NCBI GenBank assembly: GCA_903951825.1 | Contig: CAJBDJ010000032.1 | Coordinates: forward strand, 1-32,193 | Direction: 5' to 3' | DNA length: 32,193 nt | DNA from: an uncultured Pseudomonadota bacterium | GTDB lineage: Bacteria; Pseudomonadota; Gammaproteobacteria; Burkholderiales; Rhodocyclaceae | Shown here: positions 24,630 to 29,960 of the stretch, piece by piece | Layout: the number at the start of each line of letters is the position of its first letter | Numbering within the stretch: the stretch's first letter is position 1 | Notes under the pieces: model-generated | Databases searched by the model: none | What the model saw: only the letters and a program-made list of their open reading frames with translations | What the model was told of the DNA's origin: nothing | Position numbers and translations under genes: made by a program

Positions 24630-26303
24630 ATGTACCAATACGATGCCATCGACACCCAACTCGTCAACGAGCGCGTTGCGCAATTCCGTGACCAGGTCAG
24701 GCGCTGGAAATCCGGCGAGCTGACCGATGACGAATTCCGCCCGCTGCGCCTGCAAAACGGCCTCTATCTTCAGCGCCATGCGCCGATGCTGCGCATTGCC
24801 GTGCCTTACGGCATGATGAATTCGACGCAACTGCGGAAGCTGGCTTTAATTGCCCGGACTTACGATAAAGGCTATGGCCACTTCACAACCCGCCAGAACA
24901 TACAGTTCAACTGGCCAAAAATCGAGGACGTACCGGAAATTCTCGCTCACCTCGCCGAGGTTGAAATGCATGCCATCCAGACCTCGGGCAATTGCATCCG
25001 CAACATCACCACCGATCAGTTCGCCGGCATTGCCGCCGACGAGGTGATCGATCCGCGGCCGCTGGCCGAAATTCTCCGCCAGTGGAGTACCTTCCACCCG
25101 GAATTTTCCTTTTTGCCGCGCAAATTCAAGATCGCCATTTCCGGCACCCGCGAAGATCGGGCGCTGACCTGGTTTCACGACATCGGCCTGCATCTCCAGG
25201 AACGTGACGGTGAAACCGGTTTCCGCGTGCTGGTGGGCGGCGGTCTCGGACGGACGCCGATTCGCGGCCAAATACTGCGCGAATTCCTGCCCTGGCAGCA
25301 CCTGCTGACCTACTGCGAGGCAATTTTGCGCGTCTATAACCTTGAGGGTCGGCGCGACAATGCCTACAAGGCGCGGATCAAGATACTGGTGCAGGCGCTT
25401 GGAATTGAAGCCTTCGCCGAGCGGGTTGAAGCCGAATGGGAACAACTCAAGGATGGCCCGGCGACCATCACGCAAGCGGAGTTCGAGCGTGTCGCCGCGC
25501 ACTTTGGCAAACCAGCTTACGAGGCCGTGGTGGACTTCGCCCCGACAGCAGAAAAAGGCTTCAAAAACTGGCTTGACCGCAACACTTCGGCTCACCAGCG
25601 CCCCGGCTACGTCGCGCTGACGCTATCGCTGAAAAAGCACGGCGTCGCGCCCGGCGATATCAGCGCCGAGCAAATGGAGATCATTGCCGATCTCGCCGAC
25701 CAGTACAGCTTCGGCGAACTGCGCATCAGCCATGAACAAAATGTGATTCTTGCCGACGTCAAGCAATCCGACCTCCCGGCGATATGGAAAATCGCCAGGG
25801 AAAATGGCCTGGCAACTCCCAACCTCGGCTTGCTGACCGGCATCATCTGCTGCCCCGGCGGCGACTTTTGCGACCTTGCCAATGCTCGTTCGCTACCCGT
25901 CGCCAGCGCCATTCAGGAGCGTTTCGACGATCTCGATTATCTCTTCGACATCGGCGACCTCGAGCTCAACATTTCCGGCTGCATCAACGCCTGCGGCCAT
26001 CACCATGTCGGCCACATCGGCGTTCTTGGCGTCGACAAGAATGATGCCGAGTTCTATCAAGTCACGCTCGGCGGCCGCCAGGGCAATCAGGCGCAAGTCG
26101 GCAAGGTCATCGGTCCTGCTTTCTCGGCCGCCGAAATGCCCGACACCATCGCCAGGATCATCGATGTTTACCTCGCCCAGCGGCACGCCGACGAGGTTTT
26201 CATCGATACCTTCGATCGCATCGGCATCACCCCGTTCAAGGAGCACGTCTACGCGGCGCGCACCCAAGTCAACAAAAAACAGTCATTGCTGGAGGCCGCC
26301 TGA
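24630..26303 (+). CDS. cysI: Assimilatory sulfite reductase hemoprotein (nitrite/sulfite reductase family)
   Basis: A siroheme and 4Fe-4S enzyme that reduces sulfite to sulfide. The 557-residue protein has two ferredoxin-like half-domains: GYGHFTTRQNIQFNWPK with the HAIQTSGNCIRNIT motif in the first, and SFGELRISHEQNVILADV in the second. The cluster/siroheme cysteines are C408 and C414 (CCPGGDFCDLA) and C451 and C455 (SGCINACGHHHVGHIG). No flavoprotein partner (cysJ) is adjacent, so electrons probably come from ferredoxin or another donor. It overlaps the DUF934 gene by one base and shares the cluster with cysH and cysB, which favours sulfite over nitrite as substrate. Confidence 0.9.
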   Translation: MYQYDAIDTQLVNERVAQFRDQVRRWKSGELTDDEFRPLRLQNGLYLQRHAPMLRIAVPYGMMNSTQLRKLALIARTYDKGYGHFTTRQNIQFNWPKIEDVPEILAHLAEVEMHAIQTSGNCIRNITTDQFAGIAADEVIDPRPLAEILRQWSTFHPEFSFLPRKFKIAISGTREDRALTWFHDIGLHLQERDGETGFRVLVGGGLGRTPIRGQILREFLPWQHLLTYCEAILRVYNLEGRRDNAYKARIKILVQALGIEAFAERVEAEWEQLKDGPATITQAEFERVAAHFGKPAYEAVVDFAPTAEKGFKNWLDRNTSAHQRPGYVALTLSLKKHGVAPGDISAEQMEIIADLADQYSFGELRISHEQNVILADVKQSDLPAIWKIARENGLATPNLGLLTGIICCPGGDFCDLANARSLPVASAIQERFDDLDYLFDIGDLELNISGCINACGHHHVGHIGVLGVDKNDAEFYQVTLGGRQGNQAQVGKVIGPAFSAAEMPDTIARIIDVYLAQRHADEVFIDTFDRIGITPFKEHVYAARTQVNKKQSLLEAA

Positions 26304-26815
26304 TGGCACAACTGATCAAAAACCAGACGACCACCGTCGACGCCTGGAAAACCCTTGAAGTCGGCAGCGATGAAACGCCTGAAACGCTTGCCTTGCCGCC
26401 CGGCGACATTATTTTCCCCCTCGCCGTGTGGCAAGCACGACGCGCAGAAATCATCGCCGGACATAAACGCATCGGCCTCTTTCTGCACGCCGGCGACCCC
26501 TTGACCGCGATTGCCGGCGATCTTGATTACTTCATCGTTATCGCCATTGATTTCCCCAAATTTGTCGATGGCCGCGCCTATTCGATGGCCAGCCTGCTGC
26601 GCCAGCGCTACCACTACGAGGGGGAATTGCGCGCCGTCGGCGATGTCCTGCACGACCAGTTGTTTTACATGCAGCGCGTCGGCTTCGATAGCTACGCCCT
26701 GAAAGACGGCAAAAATGCGGCCTTCGCCGCAGGCAGCGGCTTCACTCCGTTTTCCGACAGTTACCAAAGCGCCAGCGACCAGCCGCAACCGCATTTTCGC
26801 CGTCGCCCCGCCTGA
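26303..26815 (+). CDS. DUF934 family protein, sulfite-reductase associated
   Basis: A 170-residue cytoplasmic protein of the DUF934 family. Its biochemical function is unknown, but it is routinely encoded next to ferredoxin-type sulfite reductases. Visible conserved segments are LPPGDIIFPLAVWQARR, DPLTAIAGDLDYFIVIAIDF and the signature GRAYSMASLLRQRYHYEGELRAVGDVLHDQLFYMQRVGFDSYAL. Its ATG overlaps the cysI stop (TGATG), implying coupled synthesis and a possible physical partnership. There are no cysteines, so it is not itself an Fe-S carrier. Confidence 0.85.
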   Translation: MAQLIKNQTTTVDAWKTLEVGSDETPETLALPPGDIIFPLAVWQARRAEIIAGHKRIGLFLHAGDPLTAIAGDLDYFIVIAIDFPKFVDGRAYSMASLLRQRYHYEGELRAVGDVLHDQLFYMQRVGFDSYALKDGKNAAFAAGSGFTPFSDSYQSASDQPQPHFRRRPA

Positions 26816-27567: not shown

Positions 27568-27592
27568 CACTTTGCTGCATTGCAACAAAGTG
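27568..27592. promoter_or_regulatory. 25-bp palindromic operator candidate (PhaR-like)
   Basis: Arms CACTTTGCTGCA (27568-27579) and TGCAACAAAGTG (27581-27592) around a single T pair at 11 of 12 positions. The core reads CTGC-ATT-GCA, like the CTGC-N3/4-GCAG type of site reported for PhaR, the repressor of polyhydroxyalkanoate genes. It overlaps the candidate promoter of the fused acetate kinase gene, which fits a repressor site. That the site exists is clear; the regulator is inferred. Confidence 0.6.
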
Positions 27593-27599
27593 ATAGTCT
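27572..27599 (+). promoter_or_regulatory. Candidate promoter of the cNMP-AckA-PduL gene
   Basis: TTGCTG (27572-27577) and an extended TGA-TAGTCT (-10 at 27594-27599) are separated by 16 bp. The palindrome covers the -35 and the spacer. The leader would be about 30 nt, with GCGAGAA as a weak ribosome-binding site before the ATG at 27636. Confidence 0.4.
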
Positions 27600-27635: not shown

Positions 27636-29960
27636 ATGAGTGAAATTGACCTGAAACGTTTCTTTCTGGAGAACGTTCGCCTGTTCGAGAGCTTCTCGTC
27701 CGACAAGGTTGAAGAAATCGTCATCCGATCGCGGCTGGCCACCTACGAAGGCAACGAGGCAATTCTCGAAACCGGCGATGAAGGCCGTTCAATCGGCGTC
27801 GTCATCAGCGGCCACGCCGAAGTTTCCATGAGCGACAACACCGGCACGCGCAACGTCATCACCCAGCTTGAGTCGGGCGATGTTTTCGGCGTCATGTCCC
27901 TGCTCACCGGCGACCGCATCATTGCCGACGTGATCGCCGGCAACCGCTGCTTTGTCCTGATGATTCCGCAAGAAGTCTTCAACACACATATCCTGACCAA
28001 CGCCAAGGCCGTCGGTTATCTTTCGCGCCTGCTTGCCGAACGCACCCGGGCGATGTCGATTGACCTGATCACCGCCCAGGCGCAGGCCGCCGCCAAGTCC
28101 GACGACCCCTACGCGCTGTCGCTCAACACCAACACCCCGGGCAAGGTCGTCGTCATCAACGTCGGCCTCAGCCAGATTCACTTCGGCATTTACGATACGC
28201 ATGACATGGGTGCCGATGTCCACGGCATTATCGACAACTCAGCCGAGGCCGTGGTTCGCGTAACGGTCATGGTCGGGCCGCGCATCAAGGTGGTTGAGCG
28301 CCCGCACTTCGCACTCGGCGAATTGTTCAAGGTGATGCAGGAATCCGTCGTCCTGCTCGGCGAAGCCTTTACCTTCCACCCCAGCGACGTCAATGCCATT
28401 GGCCACCGCGTCGTCCATGGCGGCAGCAAGTTTTCCAGCTCGGTCGTCATTACCCCGGCGGTCATCGCCGATATCGAAGCCTTGTCGATCTTTGCCCCGC
28501 TGCACAACCCGGTAAATGTCGAGGGCATCCGTATTGCGATGCAGCAATTCCCGCACATTCCGCACGTTGCCGTCTTCGACACCGCCTTTCACCAAACACT
28601 ACCGCCCTACGCCTACCTTTACGGCCTGCCTTACGACCTTTACAAACAGGACGGAATTCGCCGCTACGGCTTTCATGGCACCTCGCACCGTTACGTTTCA
28701 CTGAAATCAGCCGAAGTGCTCAAGCGCCCGCTGGGTGAGCTGGAGATTGTCTCCTGCCACCTCGGTATCGGTGCCTCGCTCTGCGCCATCGATCATGGCC
28801 GTTCGGTCGACACCAGCATGGGCATGACACCGACCGATGGCCTGATCATGCCCAGTCGTTCCGGCAGCATTGATCCGGCAGTAATGATTCACCTGCTGCA
28901 AAACCACGGCATGTCGCCCGAGCAACTCTCCAACCTGATCAATACCGCCAGCGGCCTCAAGGGCATTTCCGGTATTTCAGACGACATTCACGACATCGAA
29001 GAAGCGGCCAACGACGGCCATCACCGCGCCCTGCTGGCGCACAAGGCTTTTTGCTACCAAGTACGCAAGAACATCGGCGCTTACGTGGCGGCGATGGGCG
29101 GCATCGACGTTCTCGCCTTTACCGGCGACATCGGCGAAACCAGCGCCGCCGTGCGCAGCCTCGCCTGCCAGGGGCTCGGCTACATGGGCATCAAGCTCGA
29201 CGAGGAAAAGAACCGCAACCTCGCTTCGCTGACCTCGCACGCGATTATTTCCACCGACGATTCACCGGTCACCATCCTCGTCGTCGCCAACGATGACGAA
29301 CGCCTGGTCGCCTGGGAAACCCTGCGCGCCATCGAGCGCAACGAAATCTTCAGTTCAATCAAGGGAAGCCAGGAAATTGCGCCGATCCCCGTTGAAATCT
29401 CGGCACATCACGTTCATCTCTCGCAAGAGGACGTCGACAAGCTGTTCGGCCCGGGTCATCAACTGACGCCAGAGCACGAACTGTCACAACCGGGGCAATT
29501 TGCCTGCGCTGAGAAGGTTCACCTGGTCGGCCCCAAGGGACGCATCGCCAATGTTCGCGTACTCGGCCCGACACGCAAGGAAACCCAGGTTGAAATCGCC
29601 ATGACCGAGCAATTCAAGGTCGGCATTCAACCGCCCATCCGGCAATCCGGCGACCTCGTCAACACCCCCGGAATCACCCTTGAAGGGCCTTACGGCAGCA
29701 GCAGCATCGAGCGCGGCGTGATTTGCGCCCAACGTCACATTCACATGACGCAGGAAGATGCCATGCGCCTGCGCGTGCGCGACAACTACGTCGTCCGCGT
29801 GCGGGTTGAAGGCGAGCGAGAACTGATCTTTGGCGACGTGGTGGTGCGGGTCAACCCCGCCTTCCGCCTGGCCATGCATATCGACACCGACGAAGCCAAT
29901 GCCGGCAACATCCGTAACGGGGTGCACGGCTACATCGAAGAGATTCAGAGCCGGCGTTAA
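27636..29960 (+). CDS. Fusion protein: cNMP-binding-like domain + acetate kinase + PduL phosphate acyltransferase
   Basis: A 774-residue three-part protein. Residues ~1-150 form a Crp/cNMP-binding-like beta-roll (LETGDEGRSIGVVISGHAEV, ITQLESGDVFGVMSLLTGD) with a helical tail. Residues ~168-575 are an acetate kinase: N175, R258 (GHRVVHGGSK), D315 (VFDTAFHQ), H347 (YGFHGTSHRYV) and R408 (MPSRSGSIDP) are kept. Residues ~583-760 are a full PduL with both halves and the likely zinc histidines: HHVHLS (591-596), LSQPGQFA, RHIHMT (700-705), MHIDTDEANAG (747-757). PduL would interconvert acetyl-CoA and acetyl-phosphate, and the kinase acetyl-phosphate and acetate with a phosphoryl acceptor. Oddities: the nucleotide loops of the kinase differ from the family (GLSQIH for GSSSxK, HLGIG for HLGNG, GDIGET for GGIGEN), and the cNMP pocket lacks its Glu and Arg. 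The ORF is unbroken and the domain linkers are short. Confidence 0.92.
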   Translation: MSEIDLKRFFLENVRLFESFSSDKVEEIVIRSRLATYEGNEAILETGDEGRSIGVVISGHAEVSMSDNTGTRNVITQLESGDVFGVMSLLTGDRIIADVIAGNRCFVLMIPQEVFNTHILTNAKAVGYLSRLLAERTRAMSIDLITAQAQAAAKSDDPYALSLNTNTPGKVVVINVGLSQIHFGIYDTHDMGADVHGIIDNSAEAVVRVTVMVGPRIKVVERPHFALGELFKVMQESVVLLGEAFTFHPSDVNAIGHRVVHGGSKFSSSVVITPAVIADIEALSIFAPLHNPVNVEGIRIAMQQFPHIPHVAVFDTAFHQTLPPYAYLYGLPYDLYKQDGIRRYGFHGTSHRYVSLKSAEVLKRPLGELEIVSCHLGIGASLCAIDHGRSVDTSMGMTPTDGLIMPSRSGSIDPAVMIHLLQNHGMSPEQLSNLINTASGLKGISGISDDIHDIEEAANDGHHRALLAHKAFCYQVRKNIGAYVAAMGGIDVLAFTGDIGETSAAVRSLACQGLGYMGIKLDEEKNRNLASLTSHAIISTDDSPVTILVVANDDERLVAWETLRAIERNEIFSSIKGSQEIAPIPVEISAHHVHLSQEDVDKLFGPGHQLTPEHELSQPGQFACAEKVHLVGPKGRIANVRVLGPTRKETQVEIAMTEQFKVGIQPPIRQSGDLVNTPGITLEGPYGSSSIERGVICAQRHIHMTQEDAMRLRVRDNYVVRVRVEGERELIFGDVVVRVNPAFRLAMHIDTDEANAGNIRNGVHGYIEEIQSRR

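Follow-up and report, generated by a model that had tools for sequence, protein, structure and literature searches.

Acetate kinase (AckA) and phosphotransacetylase are textbook enzymes, and a single gene of an uncultured member of the Rhodocyclaceae raises the question of whether a chain that joins an acetate kinase fold to a PduL-type phosphotransacylase still works as they do. The gene lies on contig CAJBDJ010000032.1, in a stretch of 32,193 nt that begins at position 1 of the contig (hereafter the window). A preliminary description of this DNA had proposed a one-chain acetate pathway, in which a complete kinase and a complete PduL pass acetyl-phosphate between them under the control of a sensor-like N-terminal domain.

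A three-domain fusion gene of the Rhodocyclaceae

The fusion gene occupies 27636..29960 on the + strand, from the ATG at 27636 to a stop codon ending at 29960, and the frame check found zero internal stops, so that the reported single unbroken 774-codon frame is confirmed. The 774-aa protein carries, from N to C terminus and in the order originally claimed, a cyclic nucleotide-binding (CNB) domain (Pfam cNMP_binding, residues 36-117, E 9e-15), an acetate kinase domain (Acetate_kinase, residues 170-559, E 9e-128) and a PduL domain (PTAC, residues 585-758, E 4e-77), each above the curated cut-off of its profile. The protein also scores 412 bits on TIGR00016 (cut-off 293), and the solved structures nearest to it are the acetate kinases 2iir, 7fj7, 1g99 and 1tuu and the PduL structure 5cuo. 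An AlphaFold2 model had a mean pLDDT of 61.4 and a pTM of 0.48, and pLDDT fell below 50 over a large part of the active-site sequence of AckA and PduL; at this confidence the domain interface and the pocket are beyond judgement from the model, and only a predicted helix was taken from it.

A sequencing or assembly artefact joining separate genes is ruled out by a family set of 110 near-full-length frames at 109 loci, representing 91 distinct proteins including that of the window. The genus was represented by 59 further genomes, of which 49 contain full-length, stop-free matches (residues 1-773 or 1-774), 9 give shorter, AckA-type matches only, and in one (G036) the fusion gene is split across two contig ends. 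These data support a genuine one-chain fusion with a PduL part that looks intact. Many Rhodocyclaceae carry the CNB-AckA-PduL fusion. Across the order, the PTAC profile was found in 5 of 300 genomes, all in this same family, and in 40 genomes from other families of the order none of the matches listed was near full length, the best (E 3e-88) covering AckA only. A recent, isolated fusion is ruled out by the long PTAC-bearing frames found family-wide and by the tree, in which all 26 rows sampled group together in a single clade (100/100) on a long stem. In the open-access literature, judged by titles and the beginnings of abstracts, we found no paper on a CNB-AckA-PduL protein.

The fusion is not unique in kind, since two-domain AckA-PduL fusions occur in other proteobacteria (L140-L144, L180 and, on a Polaromonas plasmid, L181). 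They share the AckA-PduL order, but lack the CNB domain, have normal ATP-site residues and lie in different surroundings, with a phosphoketolase-like gene adjoining L141, and ppk2 and fabI near L181. A closer homologue was found in genome G1171, from another class of the phylum (L139:145-2481), with the same three-domain order and 54% identity. It is sister to the window's clade (100/100), and no second protein of this type was encountered; among 240 genomes of its class only G1171 and one below-cut-off match were recovered. It differs from the Rhodocyclaceae proteins in that its tested nucleotide-side residues are normal.

Five neighbours of the gene were examined, with NIR_SIR, DUF934 and PAPS_reduct upstream and HsdM and NTase_sub_bind downstream, and among them, as the preliminary description had stated, there is no microcompartment gene, a difference from microcompartment PduL. 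A conserved operon partner was sought by crude clustering of neighbours at no more than 87 loci, many of which had little flanking sequence, and rejected, as no neighbour cluster recurred at more than 16 loci; the commonest were a 987-aa-frame type (16 loci), a sulfite-reductase type (16 loci) and a third (14 loci).

The PduL domain (residues 585-758; 29388..29909, + strand; Pfam and alignment) contains the Zn1 ligands H592, H594 and E653, the Zn2 ligands H701, H703 and H748, and the phosphate residues R647 and S671, with roles as given in the accessible part of PMC4784909. In the alignment these zinc and phosphate residues are invariant in all 91 distinct proteins, which bears out the earlier remark that all likely zinc histidines are present. 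Compared with PduL proper (PF06130; 5cuo), the zinc, phosphate and checked CoA residues are shared, with the exception of Lys70, while the domain differs from stand-alone PduL in forming the C-terminal part of a three-domain chain. The PduL domain is thus very probably active.

The CNB domain (residues 36-117; 27741..27986, + strand) matches PF00027 (54.8 bits against a cut-off of 27.5). Its cassette, FGVMSLLTGDRIIADV, lacks Glu and Arg at the two aligned positions that we take to be the canonical CNB pair: Glu is present in 18/91 proteins, Arg (position 95) in 0/91 and both together in 0/91. An Arg one residue before the aligned site (R94) is found in 78/91. The suggestion that this domain gates flux as a cAMP-type sensor is therefore not borne out by the cassette, with some doubt owing to R94, and the domain may bind a different ligand. 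A C-helix and a variable linker follow (residues about 123-169; 28002..28142, + strand), the helix being predicted at 123-154 in the low-confidence model, and residues 141-168 have a mean pairwise identity of 0.55, the lowest among the parts measured.

Two sides of the kinase active site

Within the acetate kinase-fold domain (residues 170-559; 28143..29312, + strand; Pfam and alignments), R258, H290, D315, H347 and R408 of the window protein correspond to R91, H123, D148, H180 and R241 of the Methanosarcina acetate kinase (MtACK), which we take to be acyl-side residues, and all five are retained in 91/91 distinct proteins of the alignment. For the nucleotide side we scored MtACK S10, S12, K14, N211, G239, R285, G331 and E384, the roles of S10, S12, K14 and E384 being partly assumed from general knowledge. 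Of the 91 family members, 84, the window protein among them, are altered at all eight positions, and the other 7 at seven; R285 is retained in 7/91 and each of the remaining positions in 0/91.

In the aligned window protein (all on the + strand), the PHOSPHATE1 motif has L178, Q180 and H182 for Ser10, Ser12 and Lys14 (28167..28181), and D554 stands for Glu384 (29295..29297). I378 replaces Asn211 in PHOSPHATE2 (28767..28769), a residue that in MtACK touches the beta-phosphate; P406 replaces Gly239 in LOOP3 (28851..28853); H452 replaces Arg285 in LOOP4 (28989..28991), which lies planar to the adenine ring; and D498 replaces Gly331 in the ADENOSINE motif (29127..29129) (PMC4390882; for the last also PMC5517563). 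These substitutions are mostly conserved, with Q at position 12 in 88/91, I or V at 211 in 88/91, P at 239 in 83/91, D at 331 in 79/91 and D at 384 in 86/91. In MtACK, single mutations at N211, G239 and G331 cripple ATP use, lowering activity about 6-200 fold (PMC4390882).

The domain is not decaying, since its dN/dS of 0.02-0.21 (12 pairs) indicates purifying selection. The preliminary description of a full AckA stands for the complete fold and fails for the nucleotide side, and its own caveat of an inactive kinase applies in part, to the rewritten nucleotide side and not to the five retained acyl-side residues. With nucleotide-side changes in all 91 members, ATP formation by the fusion chain is not to be assumed. 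Neither this rewriting, the atypical CNB cassette nor the upstream palindrome described below had been remarked upon earlier.

Relative to ATP-dependent AckA (PF00871, TIGR00016; 1tuu from Methanosarcina thermophila), the fusion is alike over residues 170-564 and identical at the acyl-phosphate and acetate residues, but has seven or eight of the eight nucleotide-side residues replaced, and its kinase domain sits between CNB and PduL. As of 2017, the Entamoeba enzyme was the only known acetate kinase using PPi/Pi (PMC5517563). Comparison with the Entamoeba histolytica enzyme (4h0o), made by published descriptions of its marks, gives a mixed result. Gly331 is replaced in both, with Gly in 0/91 fusion proteins; the Entamoeba enzyme has Gln there, and its candidate bacterial relatives in the Anaerolineaceae have Asp, as in the fusion (PMC5517563). 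Asn211 and Gly239 are also replaced in both, by different residues according to the published description (PMC4390882). In contrast, the Entamoeba-type marks of an extra Gly in PHOSPHATE2 and an Asp at 330 (PMC5517563) are lacking, as the fusion's PHOSPHATE2 loop reads HLGIGAS without the extra Gly and residue 330 is Gly in 91/91; a further difference is the rewritten PHOSPHATE1. Closing the site of MtACK at 331-332 did not confer PPi use (PMC5517563).

An upstream palindrome matching the PhaR operator

Upstream of the gene, the palindrome TTGCTGCATTGCAACAA (27572..27588, + strand), centred about 56 nt before the fusion ATG, exactly matches the PhaR operator consensus of R. eutropha (Ralstonia), YTKNTGCRNYGCANMAR, as stated in the accessible part of PMC12849132. 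This is the one exact match in the 32-kb window and one of ten in the whole genome, where a control pattern gave 1 match. Among 90 distinct upstream regions of fusion genes, 69 contain the exact operator (0.0 expected in shuffles) and 86 its core (0.55 expected), while 7 have two or more mismatches; no PhaR-type site was found in the 144 nt of sequence upstream of the G1171 homologue. Phasin genes (PF09361) lie downstream of 3 of the 10 exact genomic sites, and 6 of the 10 have no clear PHB gene adjoining. The genome that carries this operator match in the putative promoter region also has a phaR gene. Close behind the palindrome lies a weak extended -10-like element, TG-A-TAGTCT (27591..27599, + strand), a putative promoter read from the sequence and not called by a sigma-70 scan. 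Of the 69 exact-site regions, 46 have the pattern TGnTAnnnT after the operator; among the other 23, TATAAT or TATACT comes directly after it in 10, 12 have a CTATCCT-type sequence and 1 has nothing clear.

The palindrome might instead be a transcription terminator or the site of another repressor. On the minus strand it is indeed called as a terminator-like hairpin (12 pairs, T-rich tail); the region has 2 calls of this type, where shuffled sequence would give 3.2. However, the + strand has no T run after the palindrome, the 17-base consensus and the -10-like element are conserved across loci while the outer arms vary, and phasins lie behind three of the ten exact sites, which makes this alternative improbable. 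There is also precedent for a link between PhaR and acetate kinase, as expression of pta and of two ackA genes goes up when phaR is mutated in Bradyrhizobium, according to the accessible part of PMC10888616. The fusion gene shares the operator match and the PHB link with the PhaR regulon (Ralstonia phasins; Bradyrhizobium pta/ackA), and differs from its known targets in that the candidate target is a fused, altered enzyme whose regulation is predicted. Control of the fusion gene by PhaR through the predicted operator is likely on this evidence, and the exact operator match before fusion genes appears to be new here.

Possible roles of the fusion chain

We tentatively favour a PHB-linked, one-chain acyl-CoA/acyl-phosphate enzyme under PhaR whose kinase part does not use ATP/ADP normally, at somewhat below even odds for this reading as a whole. 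PhaR would bind the palindrome over the promoter and repress the gene; PHB granules would draw PhaR off, so that the enzyme would be made alongside phasins. The PduL domain, with its intact residues, would interconvert acetyl- (or propionyl-) CoA and Pi with acyl-phosphate and CoA, and the AckA domain, with its five invariant acyl-side residues, would still hold acyl-phosphate and acetate, probably working in the acetate-forming direction. Normal ATP/ADP binding would be lost, and that the kinase half is not ATP/ADP-using is fairly probable. The phosphoryl group would most likely be exchanged with a smaller or non-adenosine partner, for example Pi/PPi or polyphosphate, although that particular assignment is speculative. 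The CNB domain would serve as a structural or regulatory module, probably not reading cAMP or cGMP canonically. PHB-storing cells would thereby have a valve for their acetyl-CoA pool, recovering CoA and saving (or spending) the acyl-phosphate bond without ADP/ATP. In its most specific form, a nucleotide-independent bacterial acetate kinase-PduL that turns acetyl-CoA and Pi into acetyl-phosphate and then acetate while conserving the phosphoryl group in PPi or polyphosphate, or that in reverse draws on these to activate acetate, and is switched on by PHB through PhaR, the proposal is doubtful.

The strongest competitor, itself rather unlikely, is a pseudokinase, in which the AckA domain would transfer no phosphoryl group and would act as an acetyl-phosphate/acetate sensor or as a scaffold for PduL, the only catalytic part. 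The window protein is one of the 84/91 that have lost all eight nucleotide-side residues, those of PHOSPHATE1 and Glu384 included; the changes in PHOSPHATE1 and at E384 could leave no phosphoryl transfer, and the CNB cassette (Glu and Arg together in 0/91) also looks like part of a domain chain turned to regulation. Against this, the acyl-side catalytic residues are kept throughout, position 384 is an Asp in 86/91, the AckA-domain dN/dS is low, and His180 and Asp148 would not obviously be needed by a pure sensor. Less probable still is an ordinary bifunctional pathway, with PduL forming acetyl-phosphate and the AckA domain forming ATP through altered but working contacts. The very high acetate kinase scores agree with it, and the normal ATP site of the two-domain fusions examined and of the one three-domain homologue suggests that the ancestor very likely worked in this way; yet N211, G239 and G331, where single changes cost MtACK about 6-200 fold (PMC4390882), are replaced in 91/91, and the replacement is common to a whole clade with a long stem. 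An acyl-phosphatase, in which water is the acceptor and the chain would be a Pi-cycling thioesterase taking acyl-CoA to free acid, agrees with a retained acyl side and an altered nucleotide side, but it would waste the bond and has no positive sign in its favour, and we regard it as very unlikely.

A conserved, rewritten nucleotide site beside an otherwise intact acyl-phosphate centre amounts to a natural experiment on the choice of phosphoryl donor, and this bacterial clade offers a directly testable candidate. The PhaR signature links the fusion to PHB storage in bacteria that are common in wastewater treatment, a process built around acetate uptake, PHB and polyphosphate. Rhodocyclaceae include polyphosphate-storing bacteria, and the nucleotide-independent reading, if true, would let a single polypeptide connect the stores of carbon and phosphate without ATP. 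Acetate metabolism need not run mainly through the fusion, as the same genome has a separate AckA with an adjoining PTA_PTB match (C69). Given the high acetate kinase model score, automatic annotation would probably read acetate/propionate kinase and mislead metabolic models; the record of the Polaromonas two-domain fusion is annotated as an acetate/propionate family kinase.

A single-frame fusion and its phylogenetic spread

The gene at window 27636-29960 (+) is a single open frame of 774 codons, and its product carries three Pfam domains, each far above the cut-off: cNMP_binding (CNB, residues 36-117), Acetate_kinase (AckA, residues 170-559) and PTAC, the Pfam name of PduL (residues 585-758). 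NCBIfam is in accord (TIGR00016, 412 bits; NF011652, 264 bits), confirming the three-domain fusion reported in the preliminary description. Sulfite reductase-type, DUF934 and PAPS reductase genes lie upstream, and HsdM and an NTase_sub_bind protein are encoded downstream; the DUF934 gene (window 26303-26812), between the other two, marks a sulfate-assimilation neighbourhood. When frames from up to 87 loci, often with little flanking sequence, were crudely clustered, the two commonest neighbour clusters, one of them sulfite-reductase-like, occurred in only 16 loci each, so the fusion seems to be a stand-alone gene.

Within the genus, 49 of the 59 other genomes contain a stop-free full-length match (71-93% identity), one more (G036) has the fusion split across two contig ends, and nine have only shorter matches. 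Among the matches listed for 40 genomes of the order that belong to other families, none was near full length, and the best (E 3e-88) covered the AckA part only. In a contig scan for relatives, the best 80 of 113 related stretches bore, besides unspecific titles, the names Azonexus, Dechloromonas, Zoogloea, Thauera, Azoarcus, Parazoarcus, Propionivibrio, Rhodocyclus and Sulfuritalea. These two overlapping sources, the window's own locus counted in, yielded 110 near-full-length frames at 109 loci, representing 91 distinct family proteins including the window's (one, L085, without its first residues). One genome (G515) carries two full fusion genes in tandem (L138:5552-10504), each ~72% identical to the window protein.

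A PTAC match was present in 75 of 297 sampled genomes of the GTDB family, including the window's own genome (G000). PTAC frames of at least 777 aa, fusion-sized by length rather than domain by domain, were found at 61 places, spread over 60 genomes; a further 14 have frames of only 191-327 aa, which could not hold the fusion, and one has a fragment only. All five matching genomes in the order-level sample of 300 belong to the same family. Besides G000, the class-level sample gave six matches in 274 genomes (one below the cut-off), three being AckA-PduL frames without a CNB, one truncated by a contig end, and the phylum-level sample gave six in 398, two of them AckA-PduL fusions and one a CNB-AckA-PduL protein (G1171). 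The class of G1171 added one sub-cut-off match among 240 genomes, and two more of the 199 genomes sampled from its order matched, one of them with an AckA-PduL fusion. Because these samples show few scattered fusions, AckA-PduL joining is sporadic, and the three-domain form was met only once outside the family, in G1171. The fusion is a real, old protein. It represents a variant within known enzyme families, and AckA and PduL are joined elsewhere too.

Conservation and replacement in the three domains

PduL residues were placed by aligning the window protein to the Rhodopseudomonas PduL structure, with roles as described in PMC4784909. The ligands of Zn1 (H592, H594, E653) and Zn2 (H701, H703, H748) are identical in 91/91 family proteins, as are R647, S671, S589, Q618, Q621, R641, L643, Q651, R738 and N755; among the 17 residues checked only Lys70 differs (His in 85, Ser in 6). 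With the zinc ligands and all but one of the residues checked kept throughout, the PduL half looks alive.

Kinase residues were read from an alignment of the 91 proteins with the Methanosarcina thermophila acetate kinase (MtACK). On the acyl side, R91, H123, D148, H180 and R241 are kept in all 91, and N7 is kept in 90. Eight nucleotide-side residues are all changed in 84 proteins, and seven of the eight in the other 7: S10 (I 45, L 34, V 8), S12 (Q 88), K14 (H 78, R 13), N211 (I 74, V 14), G239 (P 83), G331 (D 79, E 7, R 3, A 1, Q 1) and E384 (D 86) are kept in none, and R285 in 7 (H 80). In MtACK, N211 and G331 touch the ATP phosphates, R285 lies planar to adenine, and single changes at N211, G239 or G331 reduce activity ~6-200 fold (PMC4390882). 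Given these replacements and mutant losses, ordinary ATP use has likely been lost. The proposed 'one-chain acetate pathway' is partly supported: the PduL residues are intact, and the nucleotide side of the kinase is rewritten. The AckA domain is no decaying relic, as its low dN/dS (0.02-0.21 in 12 pairs; CNB 0.02-0.23, PduL 0-0.15) indicates purifying selection. G000 also encodes an ordinary AckA (C69:24372-25517) with an adjacent PTA_PTB match (C69:23669-24322), and two further PTA_PTB matches, both in long frames.

According to PMC5517563, the PPi/Pi-using Entamoeba acetate kinase has Gln at the 331 position, its putative bacterial relatives have Asp at 331, an extra Gly in PHOSPHATE2 and Asp at 330, and blocking 331-332 in MtACK brought no PPi use. 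The family shares Asp at 331 with these relatives but lacks the extra Gly and Asp at 330.

The window CNB is most similar by sequence to PKA-regulator-type and CRP-type domains. Its cassette, FGVMSLLTGDRIIADV, is without Glu and Arg at the aligned positions, which we take to be those that hold the cyclic phosphate; Glu occurs there in 18/91 family proteins, Arg in none and both in none. The residue one place before the aligned Arg position is Arg in 78/91, and a one-residue slip of the loop may bring it into the Arg position, counting against loss of the cyclic-phosphate contact. Pfam found no DNA-binding domain in the chain.

Origin of the altered ATP site

Normal ATP residues were found in the two-domain fusions L140-L143, L180 and L181 (Polaromonas), in L144 over its sequenced part, in the AckA portion of L182 (Sinorhizobium) and in the three-domain protein of G1171. 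Maximum-likelihood analysis of 37 AckA domains grouped the 26 rows selected from the family in one clade (100/100), adjoined by G1171 (100/100); the clade's stem measures 0.9 changes per column. The two-domain fusions form no single group, and the program cautioned about long branches joining in other parts of the tree. The simplest order of events would be that AckA and PduL joined, CNB was added, and the ATP site was then replaced on the family stem.

Among the two-domain fusions, the one at L141:5908-7803 and L136, with normal ATP-site residues, lies beside a phosphoketolase-like gene, judged from the translated neighbour, plausibly as an acetyl-phosphate-fed pair. L181, on Polaromonas naphthalenivorans plasmid pPNAP02, is annotated only as an acetate/propionate family kinase and has ppk2, fabI and genes for a P-type ATPase and a DUF3141 protein only a few genes away. 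For L182:3998-5795, on a plasmid of Sinorhizobium meliloti RU11/001, the annotation gives the PduL end a short CDS of its own, which may point to a degraded fusion.

A predicted PhaR operator and the proposed working

Window 27572-27588 holds a predicted operator for PhaR, the PHB-storage regulator, matching exactly the palindromic Ralstonia consensus YTKNTGCRNYGCANMAR (PMC12849132). After removal of 2 frames with <120 nt upstream and 18 repeated regions from the 110, 90 distinct upstream regions remained, of which 69 have the exact consensus and 14 deviate from it at one position, 4 at two, 1 at three and 2 at four; the core TGCRNYGCA occurs in 86, against shuffle expectations of 0.0 (exact) and 0.55 (core) regions from twenty mononucleotide shuffles per region. 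The exact site starts 55-116 nt ahead of the ATG, with 62 of the 69 at 60-75 nt, and mostly lies directly before a -10-like element, a placement suggestive of a repressor. In the G515 tandem pair, the first copy's site has one mismatch, and the second copy's best has four, no real site. The regions upstream of two ackA-pduL pairs, a single PduL gene and three two-domain fusions contain neither an exact nor a core site, and the 144 nt available upstream of the G1171 gene contain none either. Separate adjoining ackA and pduL genes in another family genome (L152:5289-7082) have 0 PhaR-type sites in 300 nt upstream. In the open-access literature searched, no account was found of a CNB-AckA-PduL clade that combines a PhaR operator with a replaced ATP site.

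The 2.6-Mb G000 genome, in which phaR is present, contains 10 exact sites against 1 for a control pattern: the fusion gene's own, three ahead of the ATG of phasin genes (confirmed by PF09361) at distances of 63, 100 and 115 nt, and six near or within genes without a clear PHB link. One exact site (L177:1501-1517; G000:C74:16196) lies just ahead of an acyltransferase-like gene, with the end of an apparent acyl-CoA synthetase-type gene nearby on the opposite strand, both judged from translation. A Bradyrhizobium phaR mutant strongly induced pta and two ackA genes (PMC10888616), and Sinorhizobium PhaR is a PHB-binding regulator with a broad regulon (PMC12542648).

From the observed gene, domains, residue conservation and operator match, we infer regulation, activities, partner and direction as follows. 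In a PHB-storing cell, PhaR would leave the promoter for the granules and the fusion would be made; its PduL domain would exchange acetyl-CoA and Pi for acetyl-phosphate and CoA, and the altered AckA domain would hand the phosphoryl group on to a partner without adenosine (Pi, giving PPi, or polyphosphate). The direction would most likely be toward acetate, because MtACK changes at these positions strongly raise the acetate Km (PMC4390882) and the Entamoeba enzyme prefers the acetate-forming direction (PMC5517563). The ppk2 gene near the Polaromonas fusion is a weak hint of polyphosphate.
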